DNA of 64,000 nt, taken from positions 59,631,769 through 59,695,768 of the forward strand of contig CM068831.1 in NCBI GenBank assembly GCA_028554795.2, read 5' to 3'. Position numbers and translations under genes: made by a program. How positions within the stretch are numbered: position 1 is the stretch's first letter; each line of letters starts with the position of its first letter. The notes under the pieces were generated by a model. That model had not been told where the DNA came from, did no database searches, and saw nothing but the letters and a program-made list of their open reading frames with translations. Below are positions 5,954-44,029 of the stretch, in pieces. This DNA is from Sinohyriopsis cumingii (taxonomy: Eukaryota > Mollusca > Bivalvia > Unionida > Unionidae).

Positions 5954-5974
5954 GACATAAGTAGTAAATGGGGA

Positions 5975-6300
5975 TACCCTAGCGACAATGGGAATTAGCA
6001 TTACAGAGACCCCTGGGACACTCTGGCGACAATGGAAAATTAACATGGAGAAAAATCGTGGGACACTCTGGCGACAAGGGAAATTAACATGGGAAATAGA
6101 TTTTGGGACTGTTGAGCGACAAGGGGAAATTAACATGGGAAATAAATTTTGGGACTGTTGAGCGACAAGGGGAATTGAACATGGGAATAAATCGTGGGAC
6201 TGTCTAGCGTCAAGGGGAATTTAATATATGGAAATTGAACATGGTGGGTCTGTATAGCGTCAAGGGGAATTGAACATGGTGCGATTGTCTAGGGACAATG
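5975..6300 (+). repeat. Subterminal iterons, left end
   Basis: About six imperfect direct repeats of 45-60 bp. Each carries a core like GCGACAAGGGGAAATTAACA followed by TGGGAAATAAATTTTGGGAC. The variants GCGACAATGG and GCGTCAAGGG recur. The position just inside the element end suggests transposase/integrase or replication-protein binding, but that is inference. The mirror copy is at 20135-20460. Confidence 0.85.
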
Positions 6301-6984
6301 ATGGTAGAGGGTCAAACACAACAGAGACAGAAACATACATACACTAGTACAAGCGTGAGATTTATATATAAAGCATTACCAAGACCTGAAATCTTGCTGG
6401 GGTGTTCAAAAATTTGCATAATTGTAATGATGCTATAAATAGCTATAATCAAGGAAATGCTCAACGACAAAATGGATGTGACTAAAAGTAACGTTAAAAT
6501 GACGAAATTGTCCCAGAATTTAAAGGAAAATAAACATATCCCCGAAAATTAAGTTACAATGGTTTAGACTAAAATGGATAAAATTAGTAACTACTTACAA
6601 TATCAACTTCTGTGACGATCGTGGATAAATACCTATGTATCTATAATCAGCTGAAATTCCTATGAAATCCCACTATCTATTTATAGCTCCAACTTGTGGG
6701 TTTTTCCTTTGGAAAATCCCACTATCTTTTTATAGCCTCAGCTTGAGTGACGTTCCTGTTTATGAATTCTAGTATATATGTATAGCTACAAAATGTGGAA
6801 ATCCCCAAATCGATCTTTATAGTCTCAAAATTTCCAGCGTCAGTGACGTCACTGTACTGAAAACTAGGGGATAAATGGCAACAGTGTTGCAAGTGGCTGA
6901 CCTGAATACGCGCTACTGTAGGTAGGTAGGTAGAGTGTATCTGATAGGGATAAAGTGAGTTTTATAGGGACAAACAGAGACCAA

Positions 6985-7023
6985 TACACACACACACACA
7001 CACACACAACATACGCGCGCAGA

Positions 7024-7062
<39 letters not shown>

Positions 7063-7163
7063 GGAAGAGGAAGAAACAAACCCCAAATATACTATCCACA
7101 CTCGGGAGGAAGAAAAAAAAACAACCAAATATACGATATACACAACGTACGCGAACAAACAAA

Positions 7164-7206
<43 letters not shown>

Positions 7207-7888
7207 GGAAGAGGAAAAAACAAACCCCAAATATACTATCCACACTCCGGAGGAAGAAAAAAAAACAACCAAATATACGATCTACACAACGTACGCGAAC
7301 ACACACACATACACACACACACACACACACACAGAGGGAAGAGGAAAAAACAAACCCCAAATATACTATCAACACAGAAGGGAGATAATACAAACCCCAA
7401 ATAAACTATCCACACGAACGTACGCGAACGCATACAAACCCCAAATATACTATCAACACAGAAGGGAGATAATACAAACCCCAAATAACCTATCCACACA
7501 AACGTACGCGAACGCATACAAACCCGAAATATACTATCAACACAGAAGGGAGATAATACAAACCCCAAAACAACTATCCACACAAACGTACGCGAACGCA
7601 TACAAACCCGAAATATACTATCAACACAGAAGGGAGATAATACAAACCCCAAATAAACTATCCACACAAACGTACGCGAACGCATACAAACCCCAAATAT
7701 ACTATCAACACAGAAGGAGATAATACAAACCCCAAATAAACTATCCACACAAACGTACGCGAACGCATACAAACCCAAAACATACTATCCACACAACGTC
7801 GCTAACGCATACAAACTCCAAATATGCTATCCACACTCGGGAGGAAGAAAAAAAACCAACCAAATATACGATCTACACAACGTACGCG

Positions 7889-7939
<51 letters not shown>

Positions 7940-8400
7940 GGAAGAGGAAAAAACAAACCCCAAATATACTATCAACACAGGAGGGAGATAATACAAACCC
8001 CAAATAAACTATCCACACAAACGTACGCGAACGCATACAAACCCCAAATACACTATCAACGCAGAAGGGAGATAATACAAACCCCAAATAAACTATCCAC
8101 ACAAACGTACGCGAACGCATACAAACCCCAAATACACTATCAACACAGAAGGGAGATAATACAATCCCCAAATAAACTATCCACACAAACGTACGCGAAC
8201 GCATACAAACCCCAAATATACTATCCACACAGCGTCGCTAACGCATACAAACCGCAAATATACTATCCACACTCGGGAGGAAGAAGAAGAAAAACAACCA
8301 AATATGCGATCTACACAACGTACGCGAACACACACACACACACACACACACGCACACCACAGAGGGAAGAAGAAGAAAACCATTATACACTATCCACACG
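6985..8400. repeat. CA microsatellite and 84-bp tandem repeat block (left arm)
   Basis: Alternating (CA)n runs and tandem repeats. An exact 84-bp period is visible, for example ACGTACGCGAACGCATAC recurring near 7418, 7502, 7586, 7669 and 7753, with another group at 8020-8200. Each unit contains AACCCCAAAT twice. The long ORFs here, rich in His/Thr or Cys/Val, are repeat artefacts. Confidence 0.9.
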
Positions 8401-8922
8401 CAGTGAAGAAATAACCCTTTATATATATACTATCAACAGAGAGTGAAGAAAATAACACATTATATTCCATCAACACAGAGTGAAGAAGAAAAAGTTTTTG
8501 AAAGCACCTAAGCCCTCACCTGCAATGACCAACTCTGCCAAACACCTACACCCCACCCACCCCCACTCCCAACACTACAAAACCCATTTAACCCGTTATT
8601 TTATGGCATCAGTATGTGATTTAGGAAACATCAAGACACAAAATGATGGACGAATAGACTGACTATTGTTTACGGACTTGCATGCCTAAAGAGCGTGCGT
8701 GAAGGAAAACATCCTTCCATTTCAATTCTAACTAAAACATGATCCAGAGGGATAGAGAGAGGTGAAAGAGCACAATTTCATAAAGTGTGAGTAAAAACAA
8801 AACACGCCATCCTTATTATACACTGTCAAGACCAAGAGACACTTACGTTTTCTTTCTGGTCTATTCTCTTTTAGAAGGTAGTATGAAATTTCACATCAGG
8901 GCCAACGCATCGGCTCACATTG

Positions 8923-9180
8923 TCAATTTTTCCATTTCCATGTTTTTACTGGCACAAGTTCTTCATCATCTTGAATTTCTTCTTCTTCTGAATCCCTCTT
9001 CTCTGTTTCGTCTTGTTTTTGTTTCTTCTCTTTTCTCGTAGGGCACTCTGAATTCCAGTGTCCTTTCTCCTGACAACGATATGAGGTATCTTGACTTTTG
9101 TCTCTCTTTCTTAGACGAAGCAGGTATTCTGGAGACAAATACCCATTTACCTTTGCAGATATAGCAAACTTCATTAGCAC
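8923..9180 (-). pseudogene. Degenerate zinc-knuckle/acidic-tail reading frame, left arm
   Basis: This 85-codon frame overlaps the preceding ORF in a different phase. The visible signature is C-x4-H-x4-C (CQEKGHWNSEC); the expected first cysteine two residues earlier is replaced, the local sequence being SYRC. A Lys/Glu-rich linker and an acidic run (EEEEIQDDEE) follow. The mirror copy in the right arm has a stop codon directly before the knuckle, so at least that copy is non-functional. A zinc knuckle of this type is common in Gag proteins and some DNA-transposon proteins; no specific assignment is made. Confidence 0.45.
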
Positions 9181-9319
9181 TTACACACTTTCGTATGACT
9201 CTCATCAAATCAACGACCAAAAGAGTAAGTTTTGTTGCCACTTTCGCATGTGAATTATGCTTTCGTATGACTTTTAGCAAATATTTGACCAGCAGGTCGA
9301 TCTGTGCTGACTCTTCCAT
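8966..9319 (-). pseudogene. Eroded ORF behind a TATA box, left arm (basic protein, zinc-knuckle remnant in second frame)
   Basis: I choose the Met at 9317-9319 (MEESAQIDLLVKYLLKVIRK) because a TATA box lies about 50 bp upstream on the same strand at 9370-9378. The first 55 residues look like an amphipathic helical domain and end in VCYICKGK. After that the frame becomes Arg/Lys-rich. The other frame (8923-9180) carries RCQEKGHWNSECP, a zinc knuckle that has the last three of the four CCHC ligands, followed by an acidic tail ending in LVPVKTWKWKN. This suggests one gene broken by a frame shift, with a Gag-like or nucleic-acid-binding C-terminus. The family is not recognised. Confidence 0.5.
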
Positions 9320-9369
9320 CTTCTTGATCGTTTGAGAGCGGAATGAATACTCTGACGCTAAGACACTCT

Positions 9370-9378
9370 CCTTATATA
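9370..9378 (-). promoter_or_regulatory. TATA box for the left-arm ORF
   Basis: On the minus strand it reads TATATAAGG, followed about 20-30 bases later by TTCATTC-like initiator sequence and then the ATG at 9319. The same arrangement is conserved in the right arm at 16752. Confidence 0.55.
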
Positions 9379-9460
9379 CATGGACCTGCTGCGTATGAAA
9401 CCTAGTCAAATGTAATTTTGCAATAAGATGAAACGATTTCATTGAGGAAGTAAAAAGCAA

Positions 9461-12120
9461 TGATGTACCGTATCGCCTGACACAAAACCTGAAGTTTTAG
9501 TTCAAATCCGTGTCAGCGATTTCGAAGACGACATAACTGAGCTTTAATCAATGCTCTCCAATTATGCCACAAAACCACGAGTCCTGATTCACGCCAAAAG
9601 AAATTTCGTTCGGTCCATAAAAAATAGTATCACATCTGAGAAACGCAAAAACGAACTTCCAGAAAACTGAGAACGACGGCTTACACCTACAACGTAAATG
9701 TGTGAGTTCAAGTAGTGCGTAAAACTTAGTCAAATTAAATTTTTATAGTCAAGACGAAACTATCTCTTTTCGAACAAGAAAGCAGACACCAAGCGACAAT
9801 GGCGATCCGTGTCACACAACACTTTTCAAAATGTATATTATCAGAGGTTTGTTCTAGCGATCTGCACGGTTAAATTAAATGTTGATGTATTTTGCAATAA
9901 GACGGACACAATTTCCATGGGATCGCCCATGGTACGATTGTTCGTGCATTAGTTTAATTTTTAAAAATATTTTTTTATATAAATCGCCTATAGGATAGAC
10001 CCAGTAAAGCATGGCCATTCTCGTCACTGTCTGAATAGCTACTCAAGTCAATTCGAAGCGAACGCGGTAAGAAAATAAGTATAGCCAATGAAATGGCTTA
10101 CAACGGGTGATGCATTGTTATGTTCTAGGGCTGTGTGGCATAATAATCCCTATGTTCTTGCGTTGTTACCATTACAGTGCAGACAGACTGAAATGTGAAC
10201 TTACAAGCCCTCTTTGTGTGTGTGTTGTACCATTTCCTCTTACCACATCAAAATACTGAGCGTCACAGTATTGGTTCGCGTTTTCAAGCTGACCATTTTT
10301 TTATATATCACTTAAACATTTCGACATAAACACTCACATCGGTAGAGTCAGAACAGACGTGTTACAGTATTGAGGGGCATGTTATCTTTTCTTTTTCAAA
10401 CTAATAAATTTGGGGTTTGTATGAAGTAAAGAACTGAAAGTACAGTGAAACTCAAGGATGATGACCCAATCTGTCTGTCTATTGATGCGTGTATTTACTT
10501 AAGAAGAAATATGACCTCTAAAACACAAAAAGATACGGCAAGCATGATTAGATTAAACACAACGATGTTTTCCTTCACGCCCGTGTAATTTAGAGTTTCA
10601 ATCGTCTTTGAAGACAAACTTGGTCTCCTTTTGTAGGGCTTGAAATAATAAAAAAACTGAAACATCTTAAGCACTTTGCTATAGATAATTTCATCAACAG
10701 ACCAAACAACATAAATACCGTTACAACAATAGAAAGCCTTAAATCTTCTATCAAAAAGAAATGCATGAAAAAAATTAAAGATTAACGATAACTAACCAAT
10801 GAAACCGAATTTAACAAAGGCAATGACATGTGAAGAAATGCCTCTCACTTTGGAAAGGTAGGCGAATGCACTCTGTCATGCACCGTCAACTTGAAAAAAA
10901 TTATAAACAGAGAGAAACCTGAATTCAAAATTCAGTTGTTTCTTTTTCTTCAAAATTATTTCGTTTCTTTTTTCTTTTTTTTTTGGAACAAATCTAAGCA
11001 CTAATATAGAGTGGAAAAGGGAAAATGCACATACAAGCTTTGATATTTCTGAAAAAAGGAGGGGATATTCCTAACGTTCATAACCACCTATATATGCTTG
11101 GACTTGTCTGTGACTTATCCACAAAACAAGATATACATATTTCTGGTCAAGCTGCAAGTGTGTGCGTGTTTTTGAAAATGGTAAAAATTGGATATACAAT
11201 TTTCTCGTGACACTTATAAAGTGAAGAGTCTGTGCAAGTGTCAAAAGCCAAAGTCATATAAGTTTTGTATTTTGTACGGCTTGTAAAGATTTCTACTTTA
11301 GAAAATGTGAAGTATCACAAGTTATTATCACAAACAGAAGTGGAACATAGGGGCTTGCAAGAAAGAAAATAACCCAGACAGTTGGTGTCATCAAGAGTGC
11401 TAGAGACGGTACCCGAACTTGCTTGCCTGCTTACTTGAATTAAAGTGATTTTCGCTCTAATGGAGCATGTATCACTGGCTTAATAACGCACCGCGTGATT
11501 TTTAATTACTCCCGGGGAAGGAAAGAGAGCCTCATCCCCCAGGCTTTTATGTACTCACAGACTATTTTTAAATTTAGCCACTCAGGTGTAGGACTAACTA
11601 GTCCTTAACAACCTGACTGAAAGACTTTAAACATGAGTGGGAATTGTCTCACCACACACTCATTTTTCTGTCCGAGCGTGGTAAGGGAGGAAAAAGGTGC
11701 TCAGCAAGACAGCCATGGATGTTAAGTACTCACCAAAACGCTAGCCCGTACTTATTTCAAATCAAGTCCCGTTTTTGCTAATGGACAATAAAAGGTACCA
11801 ATAATGTGTTAACCACCTGTGCAATTAGTTCAAATCTAACGAGTCTGTTAAATTTCCTACTTCCTAACATATCTGTCTAATATTAGTACTTAGTGTACAT
11901 AAAAATAGCCATACTGATCTTATTTTAAATTATTATGTCTAAGCGACATATACCAGTTTGGTCACTGTTAGGTTTAAAAAGTTAAGTTTGTTGTGGTGTT
12001 CCAATGGGTCAAGTTTGTTTCGAGAATAGTTTAGTCAAGGAGGGATACCAAGCCAAATATGGTTCCCTATTTAATAAAAAGCAATCTTTTGGAGCCCTAA
12101 AAAAAAGTCTGTTTTTTCTG
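9461..12120. other. Arm interior without recognisable genes
   Basis: About 2.7 kb, mirrored at about 14010-16669. Its longest open frames are about 60-90 codons with no motifs. The strong sequence match to the other arm is explained by the inverted duplication and does not imply coding. Confidence 0.6.
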
Positions 12121-12477
12121 TTAGAAGGTAACACGTCTCTCTTTTGCTTTCACGTTCTTTCCCGCACTCCTAGTCTCATGATTCTTGATATCAGGAAATG
12201 CGTAGCCATGATGGGCGGTAATGTAAGCAGCGGTTTCTACCAGTTGACTGAGGGGTATCCAGTGTAGGCTTGTCTGTAGAATTGGGGAAGAACTCTGACC
12301 CCTAATCCCCATTGAGAAGGTTTTTGGTTTAAAGGTGTCTAGAGATTTGTAGGCAACGTATTGTATGGCTGTAATAAACTGCCCTGCTATTTTGACGTCA
12401 TACAATGCTTGATCTAGCCCCATTTCGGTGTACTTCTCAACGAGGGTCAGCGTCCCCCTCCTCCTCAACCGCCTCAA
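12121..12477 (-). CDS. Unknown ORF near the centre, left arm
   Basis: The reading frame is conserved with the right-arm ORF at 13617-14009, with only two or three residue changes. The body begins TLTLVEKYTEMGLDQ and contains a hydrophobic stretch AGQFITAIQYVAYKSLDTF. It ends in a basic tail (KNVKAKERRVTF). No Met is obvious at the 5' side; the listed first residue is a non-ATG codon, so it may be an internal exon or the 3' part of a gene starting in the spacer. On the minus strand the spacer immediately upstream encodes, in another phase, an acidic run (SEPEEEIEAVEEEGDADPR). I do not recognise the family. Confidence 0.4.
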   Translation of the reverse strand: MRRLRRRGTLTLVEKYTEMGLDQALYDVKIAGQFITAIQYVAYKSLDTFKPKTFSMGIRGQSSSPILQTSLHWIPLSQLVETAAYITAHHGYAFPDIKNHETRSAGKNVKAKERRVTF

Positions 12478-13213
12478 TTTCCTCTTCTGGTTCTGATACT
12501 AATTCTTCAGTTGAGGTAGATAGTTTCAAATCCGCTGCTATGGTGTCTGTCGCTGTTATTGTTGTTGTGGTTGTTCTTTCAGCTGAGATTGCCTGTAGTA
12601 TCGGAGTGAGAAAAGAACGTAGTGCCTCCGATAATTACATTTGAGTTTGCCATACCGTTTGTGTAACATAATTGGACCTTTGTTTTGCCACCACTCTTTC
12701 CGGGACGGGTTGTTTGTTAGGTATAGTCGGCTGTTGACTAGCTGTTATTTGTGTTCTCGAGGTGGGTGGAGTGCTAACTGGCTAGGTCTGCATTTCTTGC
12801 TCCCGCTGCTGTTGCGTATATTTCTTCCCTCCACACCGAGTTCTGGACCTAATTCTTTAAATTTCGTTGTACCCGAACTTACATTATCCATATTATCAGC
12901 AACAAAAGAAAACAAAACGCACAGACCTAAAAGAAACACTCATTCACTTTTTACAGAACATTACTATTTTTAAAATTTTGATAAGCGACGGAAACGAACA
13001 ACTTAGAGTCACACTTTCTAACCAAGATAAAGAAATCATGTGCTGATAGACTCACTTCTGTATTTTTTCTTCTAACTGACTAGCGTATCATAGGCAATGG
13101 AATGTGATTTCTTTTCGAGAGTATGGGGTAGCCCTGAAATTTTTTTTGGGAAGTTGAAGCTATGGCGATCGCATAGGTTATAAGATGACGGCCTCCTCTG
13201 ACGACAGGCTTTC

Positions 13214-13510
13214 TCACAGGATAAGGTCTGCTTCTTTGGAAAGAGAAGAAGAACTCTTTGGTGTCGATAAAACTGTTAACAAAGCCTCTGCCAGGTTCAT
13301 GCTGCTGCTGCTGCTGTTGCTGCTCTCTCTCTGCTGTTTATGAAGTCTGTACTTCTCCGTCCATTCTTCTTTCTCCTTCTTGAATTCCTCCTTGAAGAGC
13401 TCTTCTTTCAGGTCTTCAGTGACTTTCAACATTATGATATTGTCTATCTCTTCAGGTCTCGGTATCAGACTTGTCATGACCCTATGCAAATTCACATAGG
13501 CTTCGTTCAA
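13214..13510 (-). CDS. Unknown charged coiled-coil-like ORF in the spacer
   Basis: A 98-codon frame beginning MNEAYVNLHRVMTSLIPRPE. Residues about 25-62 are Lys/Glu-rich with heptad-like spacing (EDLKEELFKEEFKKEKEEW), suggesting a coiled coil. A Ser-run linker encoded by CAG/GCT-type repeats follows, then a Leu/Ser-rich tail. Together with the downstream fragments it could be the N-terminal part of a Gag-like protein, but no family is recognised and the gene appears broken. Confidence 0.35.
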   Translation of the reverse strand: MNEAYVNLHRVMTSLIPRPEEIDNIIMLKVTEDLKEELFKEEFKKEKEEWTEKYRLHKQQRESSNSSSSSMNLAEALLTVLSTPKSSSSLSKEADLIL

Positions 13511-13572
13511 CTTGGCTTATCTTGAGCACATCTTCGTAGGAAGATGAGTCGACAATGGATGGACAGACTGGA

Positions 13573-13626
13573 GACACAACACAACACAACAATTTTGAAT
13601 TCAAAATTGTTGTGTTGTGTTGTGTC
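13573..13626. repeat. Perfect central palindrome
   Basis: A 27+27 bp perfect inverted repeat centred on GAATTC at 13597-13602, with arms AAAATTGTTGTGTTGTGTTG and complement. Symmetry continues for several more bases with one mismatch. It joins the spacer to the right arm and could mark a head-to-head junction or hairpin-resolution scar. Confidence 0.9.
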
Positions 13627-14009
13627 CCCAGTATCAGAACCAGAAGAGGAAATTGAGGCGGTTGAGGAGGAGGGAGACGCTGACCCTCGTTGAGAAGTAC
13701 ACCGAAATGGGGCTAGATCAAGTATTGTATGACGTCAACATAGCAGGGCAGTTTATTACAGCCATACAATACGTTGCCTACAAATCTCTAGACACCTTTA
13801 AACCAAAAACCTTCTCAATGGGGATTAGGGGTCAGAGTTCTTCCCCAATTCTACAGACAAGCCTACACTGGATACCCCTCAGTCAACTGGTAGAAACCGC
13901 TGCTTACATTACCGCCCATCATGGCTACGCATTTCCTGATATCAAGAATCATGAGACTAGGAGTGCGGGAAAGAACGTGAAAGCAAAAGAGAGACGTGTT
14001 ACCTTCTAA
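13617..14009 (+). CDS. Unknown ORF near the centre, right arm
   Basis: Inverted-repeat partner of the ORF at 12121-12477, with a slightly longer 5' extension read from the central palindrome (its listed start is a non-ATG codon). It keeps the same body from the TLTLVEKYTEMG region through the basic end KAKERRVTF. The very low divergence between arms reflects recent duplication or gene conversion rather than proof of selection. Function unknown. Confidence 0.4.
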   Translation: MLCPQYQNQKRKLRRLRRRETLTLVEKYTEMGLDQVLYDVNIAGQFITAIQYVAYKSLDTFKPKTFSMGIRGQSSSPILQTSLHWIPLSQLVETAAYITAHHGYAFPDIKNHETRSAGKNVKAKERRVTF

Positions 14010-16751
14010 CAGAAAAAACAGACTTTTTTTTAGGGCTCCAAAAGATTGCTTTTTATTAAATAGGGAACCATATTTGGCTTGGTATCCCTCCTTGACTAAA
14101 CTATTCTCGAAACAAACTTGACCCATTGGAACACCACAACAAACTTAACTTTTTAAACCTAACAGTGACCAAACTGGTATATGTCGCTTAGACATAATAA
14201 TTTAAAATAAGATCAGTATGGCTATTTTTATGTACACTAAGTACTAATATTAGACAGATATGTTAGGAAGTAGGAAATTTAACAGACTCGTTAGATTTGA
14301 ACTAATTGCACAGGTGGTTAACACATTATTGGTACCTTTTATTGTCCATTAGCAAAAACGGGACTTGATTTGAAATAAGTACGGGCTAGCGTTTTGGTGA
14401 GTACTTAACATCCATGGCTGTCTTGCTGAGCACCTTTTTCCTCCCTTACCACGCTCGGACAGAAAAATGAGTGTGTGGTGAGACAATTCCCACTCATGTT
14501 TAAAGTCTTTCAGTCAGGTTGTTAAGGACTAGTTAGTCCTACACCTGAGTGGCTAAATTTAAAAATAGTCTGTGAGTACATAAAAGCCTGGGGGATGAGG
14601 CTCTCTTTCTTTCCCCGGGAGTAATTAAAAATCACGCGGTGCGTTATTAAACCAGTGATACATGCTCCATTAGAGCGAAAATCACTTTAATTCAAGTAAG
14701 CAGGCAAGCAAGTTCGGGTACCGTCTCTAGCACTCTTGATGACACCAACTGTCTGGGTTATTTTCTTTCTTGCAAGCCCCTATGTTCCACTTCTGTTTGT
14801 GATAATAACTTGTGATACTTCACATTTTCTAAAGTAGAAATCTTTACAAGCCGTACAAAATACAAAACTTATATGACTTTGGCTTTTGACACTTGCACAG
14901 ACTCTTCACTTTATAAGTGTCACGAGAAAATTGTATATCCAATTTTTACCATTTTCAAAAACACGCACACACTTGCAGCTTGACCAGAAATATGTATATC
15001 TTGTTTTGTGGATAAGTCACAGACAAGTCCAAGCATATATAGGTGGTTATGAACGTTAGGAATATCCCCTCCTTTTTTCAGAAATATCAAAGCTTGTATG
15101 TGCATTTTCCCTTTTCCACTCTATATTAGTGCTTAGATTTGTTCCAAAAAAAAAAGAAAAAAGAAACGAAATAATTTTGAAGAAAAAGAAACAACTGAAT
15201 TTTGAATTCAGGTTTCTCTCTGTTTATAATTTTTTTCAAGTTGACGGTGCATGACAGAGTACATTCGCCTACCTTTCCAAAGTGAGAGGCATTTCTTCAC
15301 ATGTCATTGCCTTTGTTAAATTCGGTTTCATTGGTTAGTTATCGTTAATCTTTAATTTTTTTCATGCATTTCTTTTTGATAGAAGATTTAAGGCTTTCTA
15401 TTGTTGTAACGGTATTTATGTTGTTTGGTCTGTTGATGAAATTATCTATAGCAAAGTGCTTAAGATGTTTCAGTTTTTTTATTATTTCAAGCCCTACAAA
15501 AGGAGACCAAGTTTGTCTTCAAAGACGATTGAAACTCTAAATTACACGGGCGTGAAGGAAAACATCGTTGTGTTTAATCTAATCATGCTTGCCGTATCTT
15601 TTTGTGTTTTAGAGGTCATATTTCTTCTTAAGTAAATACACGCATCAATAGACAGACAGATTGGGTCATCATCCTTGAGTTTCACTGTACTTTCGGTTCT
15701 TTACTTCATACAAACCCCAAATTTATTAGTTTGAAAAAGAAAAGATAACATGCCCCTCAATACTGTAACACGTCTGTTCTGACTCTACCGATGTGAGTGT
15801 TTATGTCGAAATGTTTAAGTGATATATAAAAAAATGGTCAGCTTGAAAACGCGAACCAATACTGTGACGCTCAGTATTTTGATGTGGTAAGAGGAAATGG
15901 TACAACACACACACAAAGAGGGCTTGTAAGTTCACATTTCAGTCTGTCTGCACTGTAATGGTAACAACGCAAGAACATAGGGATTATTATGCCACACAGC
16001 CCTAGAACATAACAATGCATCACCCGGTGTAAGCTATTTCCTTGGCTATACTTATTTTCTTACCGCGTTCGCTTCGAATTGACTTGAGTAGCTATTCAGA
16101 CAGTGACGAGAATGGCCATGCTTTACTGGGTCTATCCTATAGGCGATTTATATAAAAAAATATTTTTAAAAATTAAACTAATGCACGAACAATCGTACCA
16201 TGGGCGATCCCATGGAAATTGTGTCCGTCTTATTGCAAAATACATCAACATTTAATTTAACCGTGCAGATCGCTAGAACAAACCTCTGATAATATACATT
16301 TTGAAAAGTGTTGTGTGACACGGATCGCCATTGTCGCTTGGTGTCTGCTTTCTTGTTCGAAAAGAGATAGTTTCGTCTTGACTATAAAAATTTAATTTGA
16401 CTAAGTTTTACGCACTACTTGAACTCACACATTTACGTTGTAGGTGTAAGCCGTCGTTCTCAGTTTTCTGGAAGTTCGTTTTTGCGTTTCTCAGATGTGA
16501 TACTATTTTTTATGGACCGAACGAAATTTCTTTTGGCGTGAATCAGGACTCGTGGTTTTGTGGCATAATTGGAGAGCATTGATTAAAGCTCAGTTATGTC
16601 GTCTTCGAAATCGCTGACACGGATTTGAACTAAAACTTCAGGTTTTGTGTCAGGCGATACGGTACATCATTGCTTTTTACTTCCTCAATGAAATCGTTTC
16701 ATCTTATTGCAAAATTACATTTGACTAGGTTTCATACGCAGCAGGTCCATG

Positions 16752-16760
16752 TATATAAGG
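16752..16760 (+). promoter_or_regulatory. TATA box for the right-arm ORF
   Basis: TATATAAGG, about 50 bases upstream of the ATG at 16811; mirror of the site at 9370-9378. Confidence 0.55.
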
Positions 16761-16810
16761 AGAGTGTCTTAGCGTCAGAGTATTCATTCCGCTCTCAAAC
16801 GATCAAGAAG

Positions 16811-17164
16811 ATGGAAGAGTCAGCACAGATCGACCTGCTGGTCAAATATTTGCTAAAAGTCATACGAAAGCATAATTCACATGCGAAAGTGGCAACAAAA
16901 CTTACTCTTTTGGTCGTTGATTTGATGAGAGTCATACGAAAGTGTGTAAGTGCTAATGAAGTTTGCTATATATGCAAAGGTAAATGGGTATTTGTCTCCA
17001 GAATACCTGCTTCGTCTAAGAAAGAGAGACAAAAGTCAAGATACCTAATATCGTTGTCAGGAGAAAGGACACTGGAATTCAGAGTGCCCTACGAGAAAAG
17101 AGAAGAAACAAAAACAAGACGAAACAGAGAAGAGGGATTCAGAAGAAGAAGAAATTCAAGATGA
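16811..17164 (+). pseudogene. Eroded ORF behind a TATA box, right arm
   Basis: Copy of the left-arm ORF at 8966-9319, starting MEESAQIDLLVKYLLK and running into an Arg/Lys-rich tail. The zinc-knuckle frame that follows in the alternative phase (about 17035-17207) has a stop directly before the knuckle in this arm, unlike the left arm. Both copies are therefore probably relics of the same gene. Family unknown. Confidence 0.45.
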
Positions 17165-17764
17165 TGAAGAACTTGTGCCAGTAAAAACATGGAAATGGAA
17201 AAACTGACAATGTGAGCCGATGCGTTGGCCCTGATGTGAAATTTCATACTACCTTCTAAAAGAGAATAGACCAGAAAGAAAACGTGTCTCTTGGTCTTGA
17301 CACTGTATAATAAGGATGGCGTGTTTTGTTTTTACTCACACTTTATGAAATTGTGCTCTTTCACCTCTCTCTATCCCTCTGGATCATGTTTTAGTTAGAA
17401 TTGAAATGGAAGGATGTTTTCCTTCACGCACGCTCTTTAGGCATGCAAGTCCGTAAACAATAGTCAATCTATTCGTCCATCATTTTGTGTCTTGATGTTT
17501 CCAAAATCACACTCTGATGCCATAAAATAACGGGTTAAATGGGTTTTGTAGTGTTAGGAGTGGGGGTGGGTGGGTGTAGGTGTTTGGCAGAGTTGGTCAT
17601 TGCAGGTGAGGGCTTAGGTGCTTTCAAAAAACTTTTTCTTCTTCACTCTGTGTTGATGGAATATAATGTGTTATTTTCTTCACTCTCTGTTGATAGTATA
17701 TATATAAAGGGTTATTTCTTCACTGCGTGTGGATAGTGTATAATGGTTTTCTTCTTCTTCCCTC

Positions 17765-17768
17765 TGTG

Positions 17769-17807
<39 letters not shown>

Positions 17808-18202
17808 CGCGTACGTTGTGTAGATCGCATATTTGGTTGTTTTTCTTCTTCTTCCTCCCGAGTGTGGATAGTATATTTGCGGTTTGTATGCGTTAGCGAC
17901 GTTGTGTGGATAGTATATTTGGGGTTTGTATGCGTTCGCGTACGTTTGTGTGGATAGTTTATTTGGGGATTGTATTATCTCCTTTCTGTGTTGATAGTGT
18001 ATTTGGGGTTTGTATGCGTTCGCGTACGTTTGTGTGGATAGTTTATTTGGGGTTTGTATTATCTCCCTTCTGTGTTGATAGTGTATTTGGGGTTTGTATG
18101 CGTTCGCGTCCGTTTGTGTGGATAGTTTATTTGGGGTTTGTATTATCTCCCTTCTGTGTTGATAGTATATTTGGGGTTTGTTTTTTCCTCTTCCCTCTGT
18201 GT

Positions 18203-18234
<32 letters not shown>

Positions 18235-18536
18235 TCGCCTACGTTGTGTAGATCGTATATTTGGTTGTTTTTTGTTCTTCCTCCCGAGTGTGGATAGTAT
18301 ATTTGCGGTTTGTATGCGTTAGCGACGTTGTGTGGATAGTGTATTTGGGGTTTGTATGCGTTCGCGTACGTTTGTGTGGATAGTTTATTTGGGGATTGTA
18401 TTATCTCCCTTCTGTGTTGATAGTGTATTTGGGGTTTGTATGCGTTCGCGTACGTTTGTGTGGATAGTTTATTTGGGGTTTGTATTATCTCCCTTCTGTG
18501 TTGATAGTATATTTGGGGTTTGTTTTTTCCTCTTCC

Positions 18537-18587
<51 letters not shown>

Positions 18588-19054
18588 CGCGTACGTTGTG
18601 TAGATCGTATGTTTGGTTGCTTTTTCTTCTTCCTCCCGAGTGTGGATAGCATATTTGGAGTTTGTATGCGTTAGCGACGTTGTGTGGATAGTATATTTTG
18701 GGTTTGTATGCGTTCGCGTACGTTTGTGTGGATAGTTTATTTGGGGTTTGTATTATCTCCTTCTGTGTTGATAGTATATTTGGGGTTTGTATGCGTTCGC
18801 GTACGTTTGTGTGGATAGTTTATTTGGGGTTTGTATTATCTCCCTTCTGTGTTGATATTATATTTCGGGTTTGTATGCGTTCGCGTACGTTTGTGTGGAT
18901 AGTTTATTTGGGGTTTGTATTATTTCCCTTCTGTGTTGATAGTATATTTGGGGTTTGTATGCGTTCGCGTACGTTTGTGTGGATAGTTTATTTGGGGTTT
19001 ATATTATCTCCCTTCTGTGTTGATAGTATATTTGGGGTTTGTTTTTTCCTCTTC

Positions 19055-19092
<38 letters not shown>

Positions 19093-19235
19093 TGTGTTCG
19101 CGTATGTTGTGTAGATCGTATATTTGGTTGTTTTTTTTTTCTTCCTCCCGAGTGTGGATATTATATTTGGGGTTTGTTTTTTCCTCTTCCCTCTGTGTGT
19201 GTGTGTGTGTGTGTGTGTGAGTCTGCGCACGTATG

Positions 19236-19272
<37 letters not shown>

Positions 19273-19361
19273 CGCGTACGTTGTGTAGATCGTATATTTG
19301 GTTGTTTTTTTTCTTCCTCCCGAGTGTGGATAGTATATATGGGGTTTGTTTTTTCCTCTTC

Positions 19362-19403
<42 letters not shown>

Positions 19404-19417
19404 TCTGCGCGCGTATG

Positions 19418-19449
<32 letters not shown>

Positions 19450-19450
19450 A
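17765..19450. repeat. GT microsatellite and 84-bp tandem repeat block (right arm)
   Basis: Inverted counterpart of the block at 6985-8400, with extra units and extra GT tracts. This accounts for most of the length difference between the arms. Confidence 0.9.
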
Positions 19451-20134
19451 TTGGTCTCTGTTTGTCCCTATAAAACTCACTTGATCCCTATCAGATACAC
19501 TCTACCTACCTACCTACAGTAGCGCGTATTCAGGTCAGCCACTTGCAACACTGTTGCCATTTATCCCCTAGTGTTCAGTACAGTGACGTCACTGACGCTG
19601 GAAATTTTGAGACTATAAAGATCGACTTGGGGATTTCCACATTTTGTAGCTATACATATATACTAGAATTCATAAACAGGAACGTCACTCAAGCTGAGGC
19701 TATAAAAAGATAGTGGGATTTTCCAAAGGAAAAACCCACAAGTTGGAGCTATAAATAGATAGTGGGATTTCATAGGAATTTCAGCTGATTATAGATACAT
19801 AGGTATTTATCCACGATCGTCACAGAAGTTGATATTGTAAGTAGTTACTAATTTTATCCATTTTAGTCTAAACCATTGTAACTTAATTTTCGGGGATATG
19901 TTTATTTTCCTTTAAATTCTGGGACAATTTCGTCATTTTAACGTTACTTTTAGTCACATCCATTTTGTCGTTGAGCATTTCCTTGATTATAGCTATTTAT
20001 AGCATCATTACAATTATGCAAATTTTTGAACACCCCAGCAAGATTTCAGGTCTTGGTAATGCTTTATATATAAATCTCACGCTTGTACTAGTGTATGTAC
20101 GTTTCTGTCTCTGTTGTGTTTGACCCTCTACCAT

Positions 20135-20460
20135 CATTGTCCCTAGACAATCCCACCATGTTCAATTCCCCTTGACGCTATACAGACCCACCATGTTCAA
20201 TTTCCATATATTAAATTCCCCTTGACGCTAGACAGTCCCACGATTTATTCCCATGTTCAATTCCCCTTGTCGCTCAACAGTCCCAAAATATATTTCCCAT
20301 GTTAATTTCCCCTTGTCGCTCAACAGTCCCAAAATCTATTTCCCATGTTAATTTCCCTTGTCGCCAGAGTGTCCCACGATTTTTCTCCATGTTAATTTTC
20401 CATTGTCGCCAGAGTGTCCCAGGGGTCTCTGTAATGCTAATTCCCATTGTCGCTAGGGTA
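20135..20460 (-). repeat. Subterminal iterons, right end
   Basis: Mirror of the left-end iterons, with cores such as CCCCTTGTCGCTCAACAGTCCC repeated in inverted orientation relative to the left end. Confidence 0.85.
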
Positions 20461-20481
20461 TCCCCATTTACTACTGACATA

Positions 20482-29635: not shown

Positions 29636-29853
29636 TTGTAAAGTCTGTTCAGTGATAATTATAAGTATATATAACATTTACAACATGTACAGTGATAAGT
29701 ACATGTATATGCACAAATTTGCAACATGTAAAGCAATAATTTAATTTAAATGTATACATTTGCAATATGTACAGTCATAATTAAATGTTTATGTATGCAA
29801 TATGTAATGTGATAAATACATTTAAATGTACACATTTTCAGCATAGAGAGTGA
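29636..29853. repeat. ~55-bp minisatellite, left part
   Basis: Diverged copies of a unit containing ACATGTACAGTGATAATTA and TGTACACATTTGCA. The array resumes at 32355-32473, so the pair of 1.25-kb units between appears inserted into it. Confidence 0.75.
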
Positions 29854-31111
29854 TAATTATAGGTTACTGCATTTGTATGGGAAAATAGGAACGAGTTTTC
29901 GGAATGAATACTGCACGAACTTGTGAGTGCAGTATATCCTTCCGACAAAACGAGTTCATATTTTCCCATACAAATGCAGTAACCTTTTTATTATATGCTC
30001 ATTTTTTTATTCTACCTAAGGTTTAGTTATATAAACAAACTACACTACAAGAAACAACGTAAATGACTTAATGCAGTATTCCAAATTAAATACACAAGCG
30101 CAGATTTGACATTACAAAATGACATCATTATTAATGCGCACATAACTCCACCCTGATAAATTTGAACTTAGTCGCGCGGTCGACATAACTTTCGAAGGAA
30201 AATGGCGTGTCTAGTTAAAATTGAAATTTGCAGTTATATTGTGAATGAATGCGCATTGCAACGACTTTTCCATTTGATCTGGAGTGAATATATTTTGGTA
30301 TTTTGTTCGATTCGACGAAGGTCTGTGCTTTTGGACTGGTTTCATCTGTGCAAATTATACATGAAATACATCGGATTGAAGTGGCGCGGGAGAAGCGTGT
30401 TTACGTCTGCAAATGTGTTTCTGTTTCTGTCATTGAATGTTTGAAATGATAACGTGGGAAAATATGAAGTCTTTCAATTGCAATTTTCATAAAGACGCTA
30501 TGGAATTTAATGTGTATTTCATTTTGAGTGCAGTAAGGAGGATGCAATTGCACTTATCATCGAAATTACAGCACACTTTCAAAATGTGTCATCCAGATTT
30601 AAAACCTATGACATGGCTCATGTAATTCGGATTTGCAGAATTAAGAAAAAACATTTTGAGGAAATTCAGGGTGTAAAACTGTAAGTATATTTTATGTTGC
30701 CATTCTTATCACCAGATAAAGAATACAGTATATTCCTTGTCACTTATATGTTATTTGTAAGGACATAATGGTCCGTCTTTTATATAATGTAGCTAGCCTA
30801 AATTCGTAACATTGTATCAACGCGGAATGTGCCAAAACAGCTGCTTTTTTTTTGTTTTTGCAGTCCACGAAACATGTTTTAGTTCATTCAGAAACAAATT
30901 TAAATAACCACAACGTAAAGAGCCTCTTACGCGAGTGTATATGATGTGTTTTCAAATCTAAAGTGCAGGCGTCTGCGTCATTGTTTACAATAGAAAGTAG
31001 TTCCTTTATTCACGTGAATGCTATATGTGTATTGTCGCGCGCGTTCAGTATCTGGGAATACTGAACGATTTCAACAATGTAAAGTTCACGGGGAAAAAAT
31101 GAGCATATAAT
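29854..31111. mobile_element. 1.25-kb repeat unit with hairpin head and inverted ends, copy 1
   Basis: Near the start, GGTTACTGCATTTGTATGGG (29862) pairs with its reverse complement at about 29965-29985, giving a hairpin of about 25-bp stems. TTATTATATGCTCATTTTTT at about 29987 is inverted at the far end (AAAAAATGAGCATATAATAA, about 31095). The unit is followed head-to-tail by a second copy. It contains a short frame (30202-30444) starting MACLVKIEICSYIVNE that is shared with copy 2 but diverges at its end, so coding is doubtful. It may be a MITE or other non-autonomous element. Confidence 0.7.
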
Positions 31112-32354
31112 AATTATAGATTACTGCATTTGTATGGGAAAATAGGAACGAGTTTTCGGAATGAATACTGCACGAACTTGTGAGTGCAGTATATCCTTCC
31201 GACAAAACAAGTTCATATTTTCCCATACAAATGCGGTAATCTTTTTATTATATGCTCATTTTTTTATTCTACCTAAGGTTTAATTATATAAACAAAATAC
31301 ACTTCAAGAAACAACGTAAATGAATGAATGCCGTATTCCAAACTAAATACACAAGCGCAGATTTGACATTACAAAATGACATCATTATTAATGCGCACAT
31401 AGCTCCGCCCAGATAAATTTGAACTTAGTCGCGCGGTCGACATAACTTTCGAAGGAAAATGGCGTGTCTAGTTAAAATTGAAATTTGCAGTTATATTGTG
31501 AATGAATGGGCATTGCAACGACTTTTCCATTTGATCTGGAGTGAATATATTTTGGTATTTTGTGTCGATTCGACGAAAGTTTGTGATTTTGGACTGGATT
31601 CGTCTGTGCAAATTATACATGAAATACATCGGATTGAAGTGGCGCGGGAGAAGCGTGTTTACGTCTGCAAATGTATTTCTGTTTCTGTCATTGAATGTTT
31701 GAAATGATAACGTGGGAAAAATATGAAGTCTTTCAAACGCAGTTTTCAAAAAGACGCTATGGAATTTAATGTGTATTTCAATTTGAGTGCAGTAAGGAGG
31801 ATGCAACTGCACTTATCATCGAAATTACAGCACACTTTCGAAATGTCTAATCCAGATTGAAAACCTATGACATGGCTCATGTAATTCGGATTTGCAGAAT
31901 TAAGAAAAAACATTTTGAGGAAATTCAGGATGTAAAACTGTAAGTATATTTTATTTTGCTATTCTTATCACCAGCTAAAGAAAACAGTATATGCCTTGTT
32001 ATTTGTAAGGACCTCATCCGTCATTTATATAAGGTAGCTAGCCTAAATCCGTAACATTGTATCAACGCAAAATGTCAAGACAGCTGGGGTTTTCTGCAGT
32101 CAACGAAACATGTTTTAGTTCATTCATAAACAAATTTAAACAACCACAACATAAAGAGCCTCTTACGCGAGTGTACATGATTTGTTTACAAATCAAAAGT
32201 GCTGGCGTCTGAGTCCATTGTTTATTTACAAAAGAAAGTAGTTCCTTTATTCACGTGAATGCTATATGTGTATTGTCGCGCGCGTTCAGTATCGGGGAAT
32301 ATTGAACGATTCTGTCAATGTAAAGTTAACGGGGAAAAAAATGAGCATATAATA
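31112..32354. mobile_element. 1.25-kb repeat unit, copy 2 (tandem)
   Basis: Direct repeat of 29854-31111 with scattered substitutions and small indels. It has the same hairpin head (31120 region) and the same inverted end sequence at about 32335-32354. The head-to-tail junction is seamless: one unit's end sequence runs directly into the next unit's AATTATAG start. Confidence 0.75.
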
Positions 32355-32470
32355 AGTACATTTATTTGCACACATTTGAAACATTTACATTGATAATCAT
32401 ATGTACATGTACACATTTGCAACATTACAGTGATAATTAAATGTATATGTACACATTTGCCACATGTACA

Positions 32471-36000: not shown

Positions 36001-36007
36001 AAAGCAG

Positions 36008-36264
36008 CATCAGAGAGACTGAGCCCACCAACTATTCGTTCCAACAGAATTCTCTATCGAGAACACTCTTGATAGAGGATCTTATTTCACAAAATAAACC
36101 CTCTATTCAGAAAACTATGATAAATAAGCCTTCTCTGCTGACTAGAAGAGTTATTTCATGAAAAATAACTCACTATAAAAATACTTCTTGACGAAGGGGG
36201 TGGTCGACGAAACACTTGGGGGCTCAGTCTCTCTGCTGCTAGCGATGTAAATATTTTTAATCCT
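36008..36264 (+). repeat. Left terminal inverted repeat of the Polinton
   Basis: It matches the reverse complement of 52542-52799 nearly perfectly. The outermost bases differ slightly (CATCAGAGAG here, AGCAGCAGAGAG on the other end). The repeat is itself a fold-back: CAGAGAGACTGAGCCC at 36011 is inverted at 36219-36234. Between lie several small hairpins, for example 36052-36077, 36082-36097, 36148-36171 and 36184-36196. Confidence 0.95.
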
Positions 36265-36273
36265 TCAGGATTT

Positions 36274-36948
36274 CTAACTAAAAATTGTATCCAACCCAAC
36301 TCGATACCGTGTCCGAGGATCATGTAAATTTATTGTTACAAATCCGTGTGGTTTTGCCTGAGCACGACTAAAGAAATTTCTAAATTTATGTATGTTCATG
36401 TCACCGCTGCGCCAAGTTCGATGAATATTTTGTAACGTGTGTGCGTCAACTCCGTTAAATACCGCGAGAATGTTACAGTTATCTCTGATCACTTTCGGAA
36501 TTTGTGTATACCGTTGAGTTACATAAATCACATCGGTGTTTTTGTGCCTGCCGCGGGAAAATATCCTGGCAGGGTTTGATTGTTTGTCCAGCATGATATC
36601 ATCGTACACGACTAAATTATTAATACCCCCATCAATATCATCGATACTCGGTGCTTCATTGATATCAGTTATAAAATCAATAACATCTTCTTCACTTATC
36701 GATTTTGCACTTTCGTTAAAATCTTTTAACACCTGATAACACCGCTGATCGTCCACTGATGGGGCTATCAAATATAATTTATCCCACTTCATCCACTTCA
36801 TTATTAAATTAAGTAACAACTGCGTCTTACCCGACCCAGATGGGCCTATAATAATCATTCGAATTGAATTTGGTAGCACTGAGTTATGTTTGATTGGCTC
36901 TCGTCGCTTTGACGCAGAAAAGTCAGTGATCTCCATTAGATATATCAT
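36274..36948 (-). CDS. Packaging ATPase (A32/FtsK-HerA type)
   Basis: A 224-residue P-loop ATPase of the genome-packaging family shared by Polintons, virophages, poxviruses and other large DNA viruses. It is expected to pump DNA into the capsid. Walker A GPSGSGKT is at residues 35-42; Walker B with catalytic acidic residues (LVVYDD) is at 112-117. VTQRYTQ near residue 142 fits the sensor/Gln region. The start could also be the internal Met at codon 5. The stop lies 10 bp inside the left inverted repeat. The frame is intact with no stops or shifts. The fragment at 2-259 is a paralogue from another element. Confidence 0.95.
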   Translation of the reverse strand: MIYLMEITDFSASKRREPIKHNSVLPNSIRMIIIGPSGSGKTQLLLNLIMKWMKWDKLYLIAPSVDDQRCYQVLKDFNESAKSISEEDVIDFITDINEAPSIDDIDGGINNLVVYDDIMLDKQSNPARIFSRGRHKNTDVIYVTQRYTQIPKVIRDNCNILAVFNGVDAHTLQNIHRTWRSGDMNIHKFRNFFSRAQAKPHGFVTINLHDPRTRYRVGLDTIFS

Positions 36949-36957
36949 AAAAATAAT

Positions 36958-37107
36958 ATGAATTTATATTGTGTGAAATGCCGAGCGCATACCCCAACTA
37001 CGGATATGACAACAATTACAACAAAAAATAATCGACAAGCGCTTACAGGAAAGTGTGAACGATGTGGCACAAAAAAGTTTAGATTTATTAAAAAAAAAAG
37101 GAGGTGA
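36958..37107 (+). CDS. Small zinc-ribbon protein
   Basis: A 49-residue ORF starting MNLYCVKCRAHTPTTD. It has two Cys pairs, CVKC (residues 5-8) and CERC (33-36), forming a classic zinc ribbon with a basic tail (FRFIKKKRR). It resembles the small YCVKC-type ribbon proteins (DUF5679-like) found in phages and large DNA viruses; this is family recollection, not a search result. It starts 10 bp from the divergently read ATPase, so the two share a short divergent promoter region. Its 3' end overlaps the phospholipase frame in a different phase, and an A10 run at 37090-37099 lies just before its stop. Confidence 0.8.
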   Translation: MNLYCVKCRAHTPTTDMTTITTKNNRQALTGKCERCGTKKFRFIKKKRR

Positions 37108-37456
37108 TATCGCAGCCAAGTTAGCCAAGTTACCAGGAACACCGTGGGCTAAATACCCAGGAGAAAAACATCTTCCAGGATATAATTACTGCGGTCCTGG
37201 AACCCGACTTGATATCAGACTTGATGCTCAGGATCAACCAAAACCAGGTGAGTATCCGATAAATGCTATTGATAAGGCGTGTCATGCTCATGATGTAGCT
37301 TACCGAAGCAAGGATTTGCAACAGCGCCATCTCGCTGACGTGAAATTAATTCATGCGTTGGATGCCATCACTGATAAATCTTTCAAGGAGAGGTTAGCAT
37401 CCTGGTTAATAAAATCCGCAATGAAATCTAAGCTTGTATTAGGCGCTGGTAATTAA
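37055..37456 (+). CDS. Phospholipase A2 domain protein (parvovirus VP1u-like)
   Basis: This frame carries the phospholipase A2 signature. YCGPG (residues 45-49, numbered from the GTG at 37055) is the calcium loop, and HD (79-80) with Tyr 83 in KACHAHDVAYRSK is the catalytic HDxxY motif. The enzyme would hydrolyse the sn-2 bond of phospholipids. In parvoviruses this domain sits in VP1 and breaches the endosomal membrane; PLA2 domains have also been reported in adintovirus-like elements. A role in membrane penetration here is inference. No ATG exists: the frame opens after a TGA at 37007-37009. Expression would need a non-AUG start, splicing, or a shift from the overlapping zinc-ribbon frame at the A10 run. 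The integrase starts 5 bp downstream. Confidence 0.85.
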   Translation: MNDVAQKSLDLLKKKGGDIAAKLAKLPGTPWAKYPGEKHLPGYNYCGPGTRLDIRLDAQDQPKPGEYPINAIDKACHAHDVAYRSKDLQQRHLADVKLIHALDAITDKSFKERLASWLIKSAMKSKLVLGAGN

Positions 37457-37461
37457 TTATA

Positions 37462-38427
37462 ATGGAGTCGATTTATTATTCCCCAAGAGGATACTGGAGA
37501 GGTAACGCGGCAATTAGTAAACTTGCCAGTGCAGCAAAAGTTACAAAAGTTACTGCTAAAAATTGGTTATCCCGACAGGCAATATGGCAAATTTATCTAC
37601 CGCGTCCTAAACAAATTCACTTTGCGCATTTCGATGTTAGTGTACCAAATGAGGTTCATCAGGCTGATATATTATTTCTGCCACATGACACTATCCGAAG
37701 ACGCATATACAAGTACGCGTTAACTGTAGTTGATGTTGCGAGTAGATACAAAGATGCTGAACCGTTAACGACTAAAACAGCATCTGAGGTTGCTTCTGCG
37801 TTTAAACGAATTTATCAACGTGGTCTACGTTGGCCAAATTTATTACTAGTTGATCCTGGCAAATAATTTCAGGGTGCAGTATCATCTTTGATGAAACAAC
37901 ATAACGTCACCATCAGACGAGGACATACTCAAATTCATCGCGATCAGGCAATTGTTGAGCGATTCAATCGAACACTTGCTGAGCGGTTATTTGGATATCA
38001 ATACGCGAAGGAATTTATTCAGGATACGAGATCGCGCGAAAGGGTTGCAAGATTACCAAGCGTGATAGCTGCACTAAATAATGAAATAACTCGAACAACC
38101 AACATGAAACCTGCCATCGCGATCACGAAAACACAAGGTGTTTTTCAAAAACATATACCCGTACGACGTGATTCTTTAGCACAGCCAAAACTGGGTAATG
38201 TCACTGTAAGATATTTATATGAGCCCGGTGAACTTGAAGGTGGTAAAAAAAGAGCAACTGATCCTATTTGGAGTGTTACCACACACAAGATAACCACCGT
38301 GACAAGATCCAGTGGTAGACCAGCAATCTACAGGTTGGATTCAACTGCTCCTCAACGTGGATTCACACGTGAGCAATTACAGGTAATTCCCGAGGACACA
38401 CAATTACCGCCAAAATCACTGAAGTGA
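37462..38427 (+). pseudogene. Retroviral-type (DDE) integrase with one in-frame stop
   Basis: This Polinton integrase joins element ends to host DNA. An N-terminal helical part is followed by the rve core. Asp69 (HQADI) and Asp131 (LLVDPG) are the first two catalytic residues. Glu166 (in QAIVERFNRTLAERLF) is the third, with 34 residues between it and Asp131, the usual retroviral-integrase spacing. The C-terminal part (about 240-320) matches Polinton integrases in containing ATDPIWSV and GFTREQLQV. A TAA at 37864-37866, four codons after Asp131, truncates the protein before the catalytic Glu. The frame downstream is otherwise open to 38427. As sequenced the product would be inactive. Integrase for this copy might be supplied in trans by relatives such as the element at the window start. 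Confidence 0.92.
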
Positions 38428-38662
38428 TTTCAATGACTTCACTAGCGCTGGCGCCTCTACGTCGATTGCACTCAAGACAGGTCAACATGATATTATCACG
38501 TGTATGACCGCGATTGTTATCTTTTCTGTCTACGGTAAATTGTCTTGAATTTTTATTCGAATACTGCCATAGCATTATAAAATTACAAGTCGCGCAGTGA
38601 TTATTCTGCTGTTGTTTCAACGCGTTGATAAATTCAACATCAAGATCACAAGATTTTGTCAC
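38363..38662 (-). pseudogene. HNH-type domain, probably the displaced C-terminus of the PolB/helicase gene
   Basis: The frame encodes an HNH/zinc-type fold. CATC (residues 23-26, from the GTG at 38662) and CLEC (62-65) are the metal-binding pairs; VDRKDNNRGHTRDN (44-57) is the catalytic ββα core with Asp45, His53 and Asn57. No ATG is present. Upstream the frame hits a stop within about 12 codons, right across an A8 run at 38681-38688. It overlaps the 3' end of the helicase by 17 bp in the +1 phase. The simplest reading is that it was the C-terminal domain of that protein and is now separated by one extra A. A separate nicking endonuclease made from a non-AUG start cannot be excluded. Confidence 0.7.
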
Positions 38663-41600: not shown

Positions 41601-41921
41601 ATCTGTTTGCACAATAAATTTTATTCTGAAAAAATATTTCTGTTTACGTTGACGAAAATCAAGGTAATCAATAATTGTTTTTGCTCGGGCATCAGTCATT
41701 GTAGCATCGATGATGACCTCATCACTGCCGAAGAGTTCGTCAATGATATTGACATCGTCAACGTCGCGGATAATTTTAAATGACGACCATACATGAGATG
41801 CGCCGTCGTCGCGAAATTCTTTTTTACCCTCGTTGATAATATTAAACAGATCAGCTAGATACCGTCGTCGTAGATCGAATCTCCCGGCGCCAACTGCAGA
41901 TAATCTTGAAAACTCTTCCAT
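38646..41921 (-). pseudogene. PolB DNA polymerase joined to SF1 helicase, two in-frame stops
   Basis: One 1,091-codon frame interrupted by TGA (40380-40382) and TAA (39885-39887). The first 513 codons hold the N-terminal region and polymerase motif A (VDMIAGYPGSF, near residue 410). The middle part carries motif B-like sequence (HLRSSMLAYVSINLLS) and motif C (ATDS, about 671-674). WGSWRIKAE just after the second stop fits the polymerase thumb. The last part is an SF1 helicase: Walker A GPGRSGKT (750-757), motif II WDE (about 820-822), motif III CGDHGQPPPF (848-857), and motifs V/VI TIHSSQG and YLAVSRV. It would replicate the linear element from protein-primed ends. Absence of stops over all other codons and conserved motifs on both sides show the breaks are recent or sequencing errors. 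Confidence 0.9.
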
Positions 41922-41965
41922 ATTATATTTAAGACAAATCTTTAAATAAGAAATATCATATATAA

Positions 41966-42184: not shown

Positions 42185-42254
42185 AATCCGAGAGTGATTA
42201 TATAACTAGGTTTTCAAACAAATTATAAATTAGACATATACATTATATATACAA

Positions 42255-43926: not shown

Positions 43927-44029
43927 TTGCATTTTACTTGGAAATCGAGTACCTGGAAGTGAATTCGAAAGTAAAAAAAAATAATATTTTTTTTTTACTG
44001 TCCAAATTGTGCAATTGTCCGATTTCGTT

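Follow-up and report, generated by a model that had tools for sequence, protein, structure and literature searches.

A near-palindromic insertion with Maverick-type ends

The 64-kb stretch of contig CM068831.1 of the bivalve Sinohyriopsis cumingii analysed here (hereafter the window) carries an insertion of 14,516 bp at positions 5960–20475 (hereafter the element). The element is a gene-poor giant palindrome with Maverick-type ends and is probably a fold-back derivative. The interval proposed for it in a preliminary description of this DNA, 5954–20481, holds, as it comprises the element and both of its GACATA target-site duplications. The features of the element are as follows.

5954–5959, no strand: left target-site duplication GACATA (boundary sequence comparison)
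5960–12500, plus strand: left arm, 6,541 bp, starting with AGTAGTAAATGG (arm alignment)
6026–6279, plus strand: 45-bp subterminal tandem repeats with core GCGACAAGGGGAA, mirrored at 20156–20409 (Tandem Repeats Finder, pattern search)
6954–8489, plus strand: minisatellite (44/84-bp units) and AC-repeat tract, excluded from the count of arm divergence (Tandem Repeats Finder, arm alignment)
8966–9442, minus strand: 158-residue open reading frame (ORF) in the left arm, repeated in the right arm at 16688–17164, plus strand (ORF list, comparison of arms)
12121–12423, minus strand: orphan ORF of 100 residues at the left arm's inner end, with a copy in the right arm at 13707–14009 that differs by two residues (ORF list)
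12501–13629, no strand: unique spacer, 1,129 bp (arm alignment)
13573–13626, no strand: 54-bp perfect palindrome centred on GAATTC (palindrome scan, folding)
13630–20475, minus strand: right arm, 6,846 bp, finishing with CCATTTACTACT (arm alignment)
20476–20481, no strand: right target-site duplication GACATA (boundary sequence comparison)

The borders read GACATA/AGTAGTAAATGG...CCATTTACTACT/GACATA. The duplication is exact and precisely 6 bp long on both flanks, as claimed earlier, and the AG...CT termini of the preliminary description are seen in full as AGTAGT...ACTACT. At either end, six of six bases fit the Maverick motif (AGT)2//(ACT)2. This is the commonest end motif among vertebrate Mavericks, the group for which PMC8097293 describes it, and these elements also make 6-bp duplications (PMC8097293), the length given for Polintons (PMC10045372, PMC8097293). 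In both its end motif and its GACATA duplication the element matches Polintons/Mavericks. By chance, two fixed boundaries would carry a 6-bp duplication with a probability of 1/4,096, which also applies to any one prescribed 6-bp end motif. Twelve AGTAGT and eight ACTACT sites occur in the window, and the only pair lying 0.5–40 kb apart with identical flanking 6-mers is the one that bounds the element. The left and right flanks of the element are unlike each other. The AG...CT ends, together with the exact 6-bp GACATA duplication, bear out the earlier proposal that the element inserted as a single unit.

The two arms make up 92.2% of the element ((6541+6846)/14516), and their measured lengths and that of the spacer are in line with the approximate values first reported (about 92% inverted repeat, arms of about 6.5 and 6.85 kb, spacer of 1.1 kb). 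Leaving out the minisatellite stretch 6954–8489, 25 of the 5,000 aligned sites differ between the arms (99.5% identity), and there are three small indels. The raw blastn value is lower (95.8% over 5,537 columns) because the length of the minisatellite differs between the arms: the right arm carries a 267-bp insert of minisatellite repeat units and some shorter length differences. From the rim inward, each arm consists of the 45-bp repeats, about 700 bp of other sequence, the minisatellite and about 4 kb with little coding capacity. The core of the subterminal repeats, GCGACAAGGGGAA, has ten pattern matches in the window, five in each arm, with none expected by chance. Nucleotide similarity between the element and the rest of the window is confined to TG repeats.

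Mismatches between the arms are somewhat denser at outer sites (15/1,799) than at inner sites (10/3,201; Fisher p 0.019, with the boundary chosen post hoc). They are clustered, and a changepoint permutation gives p 0.13. A strong gradient of divergence from rim to centre was considered and rejected: four mismatches first counted as outer belonged to the target duplication itself, and the test is weak without them.

The inner junctions

The 54-bp palindrome centred on GAATTC stops 3 bp short of the right arm. It is the longest perfect palindrome in the window that is not AT sequence, the longer ones being pure AT runs, and the only one with a stem of at least 13 bp and a loop of at most 4 nt once AT runs are excluded. 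None of 200 shuffles folds as well as this region (z -9.0). With one mismatch allowed, the stem extends to 33 bp and reaches ACT/AGT, and this same AGT opens the right arm (AGTATCAG). The left junction (12500/12501) lacks a palindrome or AGT microhomology comparable to that of the right junction. The combination of palindrome and AGT microhomology suggests template switching, by which one end would have been copied onto the other. Continuity of reading frames was discarded as proof of the parental junction, since open frames cross both junctions (65 codons over the left, 136 codons over the right).

Coding content of the element

Six ORFs of the element were scanned against Pfam, and none of the six gave a match above cut-off; no polymerase, integrase, transposase, ATPase, protease or capsid family was found among them. 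A tblastx comparison of the element with a Polinton-like provirus lying in the same window yielded one match of 19 residues (E 0.67). Both results agree with the earlier remark that known genes for a transposase, polymerase or capsid are not visible. The core genes of Polintons and Mavericks (integrase, protein-primed polymerase, ATPase, protease and capsid) are therefore not recognised in the scanned ORFs, and we do not class the element as a Polinton proper. Within the reach of these searches, it is non-autonomous, with ends of Polinton type.

The two copies of the 158-residue ORF differ at two positions, both of them third codon positions, and encode identical proteins. Two changes are too few for selection to be claimed. 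The ORF lies in the longest stop-to-stop frame of the inner ~4 kb, which has 176 codons, compared to a maximum of 159 in 200 dinucleotide shuffles. A frame overlapping it holds a decayed CCHC zinc knuckle, the best Pfam match among the six ORFs (20.1 bits, cut-off 20.8), and is broken by a stop in the right arm. This frame may be an old gag remnant.

Relatives were sought for several parts of the element. An inner 136-residue frame fitted three stretches by pattern in viral_contigs, none of which was confirmed; in the protein database it drew nine candidates, and its longer context 114, none with E <= 1 in either case. The viral_contigs and protein database searches gave no relatives for the 100-residue inner ORF. 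Three element ORFs compared with PHROGs gave a single match (E 0.095), and Rfam gave no match in the window at the gathering score. Neither the exact terminal 33-mer of the element nor a degenerate 23-bp subterminal repeat has a match in viral_contigs.

A neighbouring Polinton-like provirus

The provirus lies at about 36006–52799, 15.5 kb from the element, and is bounded by inverted repeats of about 270 bp with 97% identity. Its Pfam matches above cut-off are a pox A32-like ATPase, a PLA2-like domain, a helicase-type AAA domain, a double-jelly-roll capsid and an HNH nuclease. An integrase core, in an interrupted frame and with its pieces lying apart, and an adenovirus-type (adenain-like) protease match below cut-off, and no Pfam polymerase match was obtained from the two frames tested (40383–42056 and 39888–40379). 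Its capsid has 21 relatives with E <= 1e-5 among 8,000 candidates scored, and the three that are named by organism come from two freshwater mussels and Hydra; in viral_contigs one stretch fitted the capsid pattern and none was confirmed. The presence of this provirus in the window indicates that this genome has harboured Polinton-like elements.

The provirus was considered as a parent of the element and rejected: there is no nucleotide similarity beyond TG repeats and no tblastx similarity, and the ends are different. The other Maverick motif, AGAGAG...CTCTCT, is located 6 bp inside the borders of the provirus repeats. Because the outer ends differ and the integrase frame is interrupted, the provirus is not evident as a helper either.

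Several further features of the provirus were noted. Its terminal repeats (36006–36275 and 52533–52799) are each bounded by an inverted repeat of their own, AGAGAGACTGAG...CTCAGTCTCTCT (36012–36234 and 52572–52793). For the left one, folding gives a branched hairpin (z -7.3), and the provirus also has the PLA2-like ORF. Such a branched hairpin is reminiscent of parvovirus termini. Terminal hairpins of this kind were rejected for the element, as 99 of 100 shuffles fold better than the region 5960–6260 (z +2.1). The borders of the provirus (36001–36007 and 52800–52806) share a 7-bp direct repeat, AAAGCAG, which overlaps the left repeat by two bases. It may be the target duplication of the provirus, although its length is uncertain; these borders show no clean 6-bp duplication. 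ORF 47236–48360 resembles tail-fibre proteins of phages (phrog_2710, E 6.3e-08), with a match to the Pfam T7 tail fibre family below cut-off, and the HNH endonuclease is encoded by ORF 42234–42770 (PF13392, E 1.6e-14). Elsewhere in the window, a tandem direct duplication of about 1.26 kb was found (29853–31113 and 31110–32355, 92% identical).

Origin of the palindrome

We consider it somewhat better than an even chance that the element is non-autonomous, of Polinton/Maverick type, was mobilised in trans and was turned palindromic by fold-back copying. The starting point would be an asymmetric parent element under replication. Synthesis would first have folded back at GAATTC in what is now the spacer, copying about 33 bp in reverse, and then have switched a second time, via the AGT microhomology, onto the arm at 12500, from where copying would have proceeded to the terminus. 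With two such template switches, both outer ends would be copies of one parental end: the other parental end would have been lost and a second copy of the same end put in its place, giving a symmetric molecule that could still integrate. The 99.5% identity of the arms outside the minisatellite suggests that the one end was copied recently, and the unlike flanks indicate that copying halted at the end of the element. Copying on a free linear molecule would yield a product with two good ends, able to integrate with a target duplication. We prefer, without certainty, a palindrome made before insertion rather than in the chromosome.

The enzymes would have come from elsewhere. Insertion would have been carried out by a Polinton integrase acting in trans, and the duplicated terminal trinucleotide would offer a protein-primed polymerase, likewise supplied in trans, a usable origin at each end. 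In adenovirus, duplicated terminal triplets serve the jumping-back mode of protein-primed initiation (PMC4974454). The AGTAGT/ACTACT motif may thus mark each end both as a protein-primed origin and as an integrase substrate. Carrying a Maverick end signature and no recognised Polinton gene, the element looks like a freeloader on Polinton enzymes. The preliminary description had already suggested that the element may be non-autonomous and be moved in trans by the integrase of a Polinton. The published Maverick end motif and the 6-bp duplication support this suggestion, although we only infer the mobilisation in trans itself. The other possibility raised there, a new element class, is unsupported, because the ends belong to a known kind.

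Several observations weigh against this scenario. Only one copy is at hand, so that the case for mobility depends on a single insertion with a clean target duplication. No helper with (AGT)2-type ends was found; the neighbouring provirus in the window has other ends and shows no similarity. The (AGT)2//(ACT)2 motif is documented for vertebrates (PMC8097293), whereas the host is an invertebrate. The choice of the parental junction depends mainly on the 54-bp palindrome, and the higher divergence of the outer arm sites leans towards extension of the repeats in place.

Such an extension would start from an ordinary Polinton-type insertion, or a deletion derivative of one, whose shorter terminal inverted repeats (TIRs) were later made near-palindromic by break repair or gene conversion. 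The event would have begun at the inner AGT microhomology and been resolved in the pre-existing right repeat, so that the old target duplication was kept. There is a precedent in Galileo, whose inverted repeats are proposed to lengthen by recruiting internal sequence (PMC3573991), and the excess of outer mismatches fits. This excess is weak under the changepoint permutation, however, and the mismatches are clustered. Moreover, a single event would have to start by microhomology and finish by homology exactly within the element: chromosomal copying would continue into the left flank, yet the right flank differs, and a second, homologous resolution is therefore needed. We regard extension in place as rather unlikely, though not negligible. 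Far less probable is a Foldback-like or other cut-and-paste DNA transposon with Polinton-like ends by chance. Foldback/Galileo-like elements typically have long inverted repeats that contain internal tandem repeats (PMC3573991), no Polinton gene was recognised inside the element, and 6-bp duplications are also known for IS3EU and GingerRoot (PMC10045372). Against this, the ends of the element match the Maverick motif at six of six bases on both sides, while Galileo duplications are 7 bp long (PMC3573991), IS3EU ends in TA..TA, GingerRoot in TA..TA or occasionally TG..CA (PMC10045372), and Ginger1/2 have TG ends with 4–5-bp duplications (PMC10045372, PMC2836005).

Near-palindromes are difficult to sequence and assemble, and an arm divergence of 0.5% could be haplotypic; an ordinary element might then have been joined tail to tail from two haplotypes or strands. 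The boundaries speak otherwise, with unlike flanks and yet an exact target duplication. One junction bears its own palindrome, the spacer is unique, and the arms differ in substitutions as well as in repeat length, including the 267-bp insert. An assembly inversion is thus unlikely, and we give an artefact of this kind very little weight.

Comparison with known systems

The fold-back derivative that we favour is closest in its ends to the vertebrate Mavericks, with which it shares (AGT)2//(ACT)2 termini, a 6-bp duplication, inverted repeats and a similar overall size (PMC8097293). It differs from them in the absence of recognised core genes, which they possess, and in the extent of its repeats. 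Intact vertebrate Mavericks are 12.7–24.6 kb long with inverted repeats of 46–1,447 bp (mean 402; PMC8097293), against 6,541 and 6,846 bp in the element.

With Foldback and Galileo of Drosophila the element has in common long inverted repeats containing internal tandem repeats, and gene-poor copies. Complete copies of these transposons encode a P-type transposase; no transposase family was found in the six element ORFs scanned. Foldback and Galileo ends are not AGT/ACT. Galileo further differs by its 7-bp duplication, compared to 6 bp here, and by repeats that reach about 1.25 kb in D. mojavensis, compared to 6.5–6.8 kb (PMC3573991). IS3EU and GingerRoot share the 6-bp duplication but have TA..TA termini (in GingerRoot occasionally TG..CA) in place of AG..CT (PMC10045372), and Ginger1 and Ginger2 depart from the element in both respects, with TG termini and duplications of 4–5 bp (PMC2836005, PMC10045372). 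Teratorn, a fusion of piggyBac and a herpesvirus, is 41–182 kb long, with herpesvirus genes, a piggyBac-like transposase and TIRs of 18 bp.

Symmetric recombinants and inverted-duplication defective genomes of adenoviruses are palindromic, carry the same viral end at both termini and arise from protein-primed replication. These are virion or episomal DNA, whereas the element sits in a chromosome, is flanked by a target duplication and has no recognised viral gene.

Implications for Polinton biology

A literature search of titles and abstract openings found no description of a multi-kb palindromic Polinton. In the open-licence PMC literature searched (Repbase being outside its scope), the terms 'non-autonomous' or 'nonautonomous' Polinton or Maverick and 'Maverick-derived' were not found, and only 'Polinton-derived' occurs, once each in three papers. 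To our knowledge, episomal protein-primed replication of animal Polintons has been inferred from their genes and not observed. By analogy with the defective genomes of adenoviruses, and tentatively, the element may represent a class of Polinton satellites: palindromic, gene-poor, born by fold-back during protein-primed replication and persisting in the germ line through the polymerase and integrase of a helper Polinton. This is possible rather than probable. If it is true, the element would document a non-autonomous partner of Polintons, and chromosomal insertions of this kind would be a fossil of episomal Polinton replication. As a fold-back product of one Polinton-type end, the element would provide indirect evidence that Polintons replicate as free linear DNA and give rise to defective genomes.

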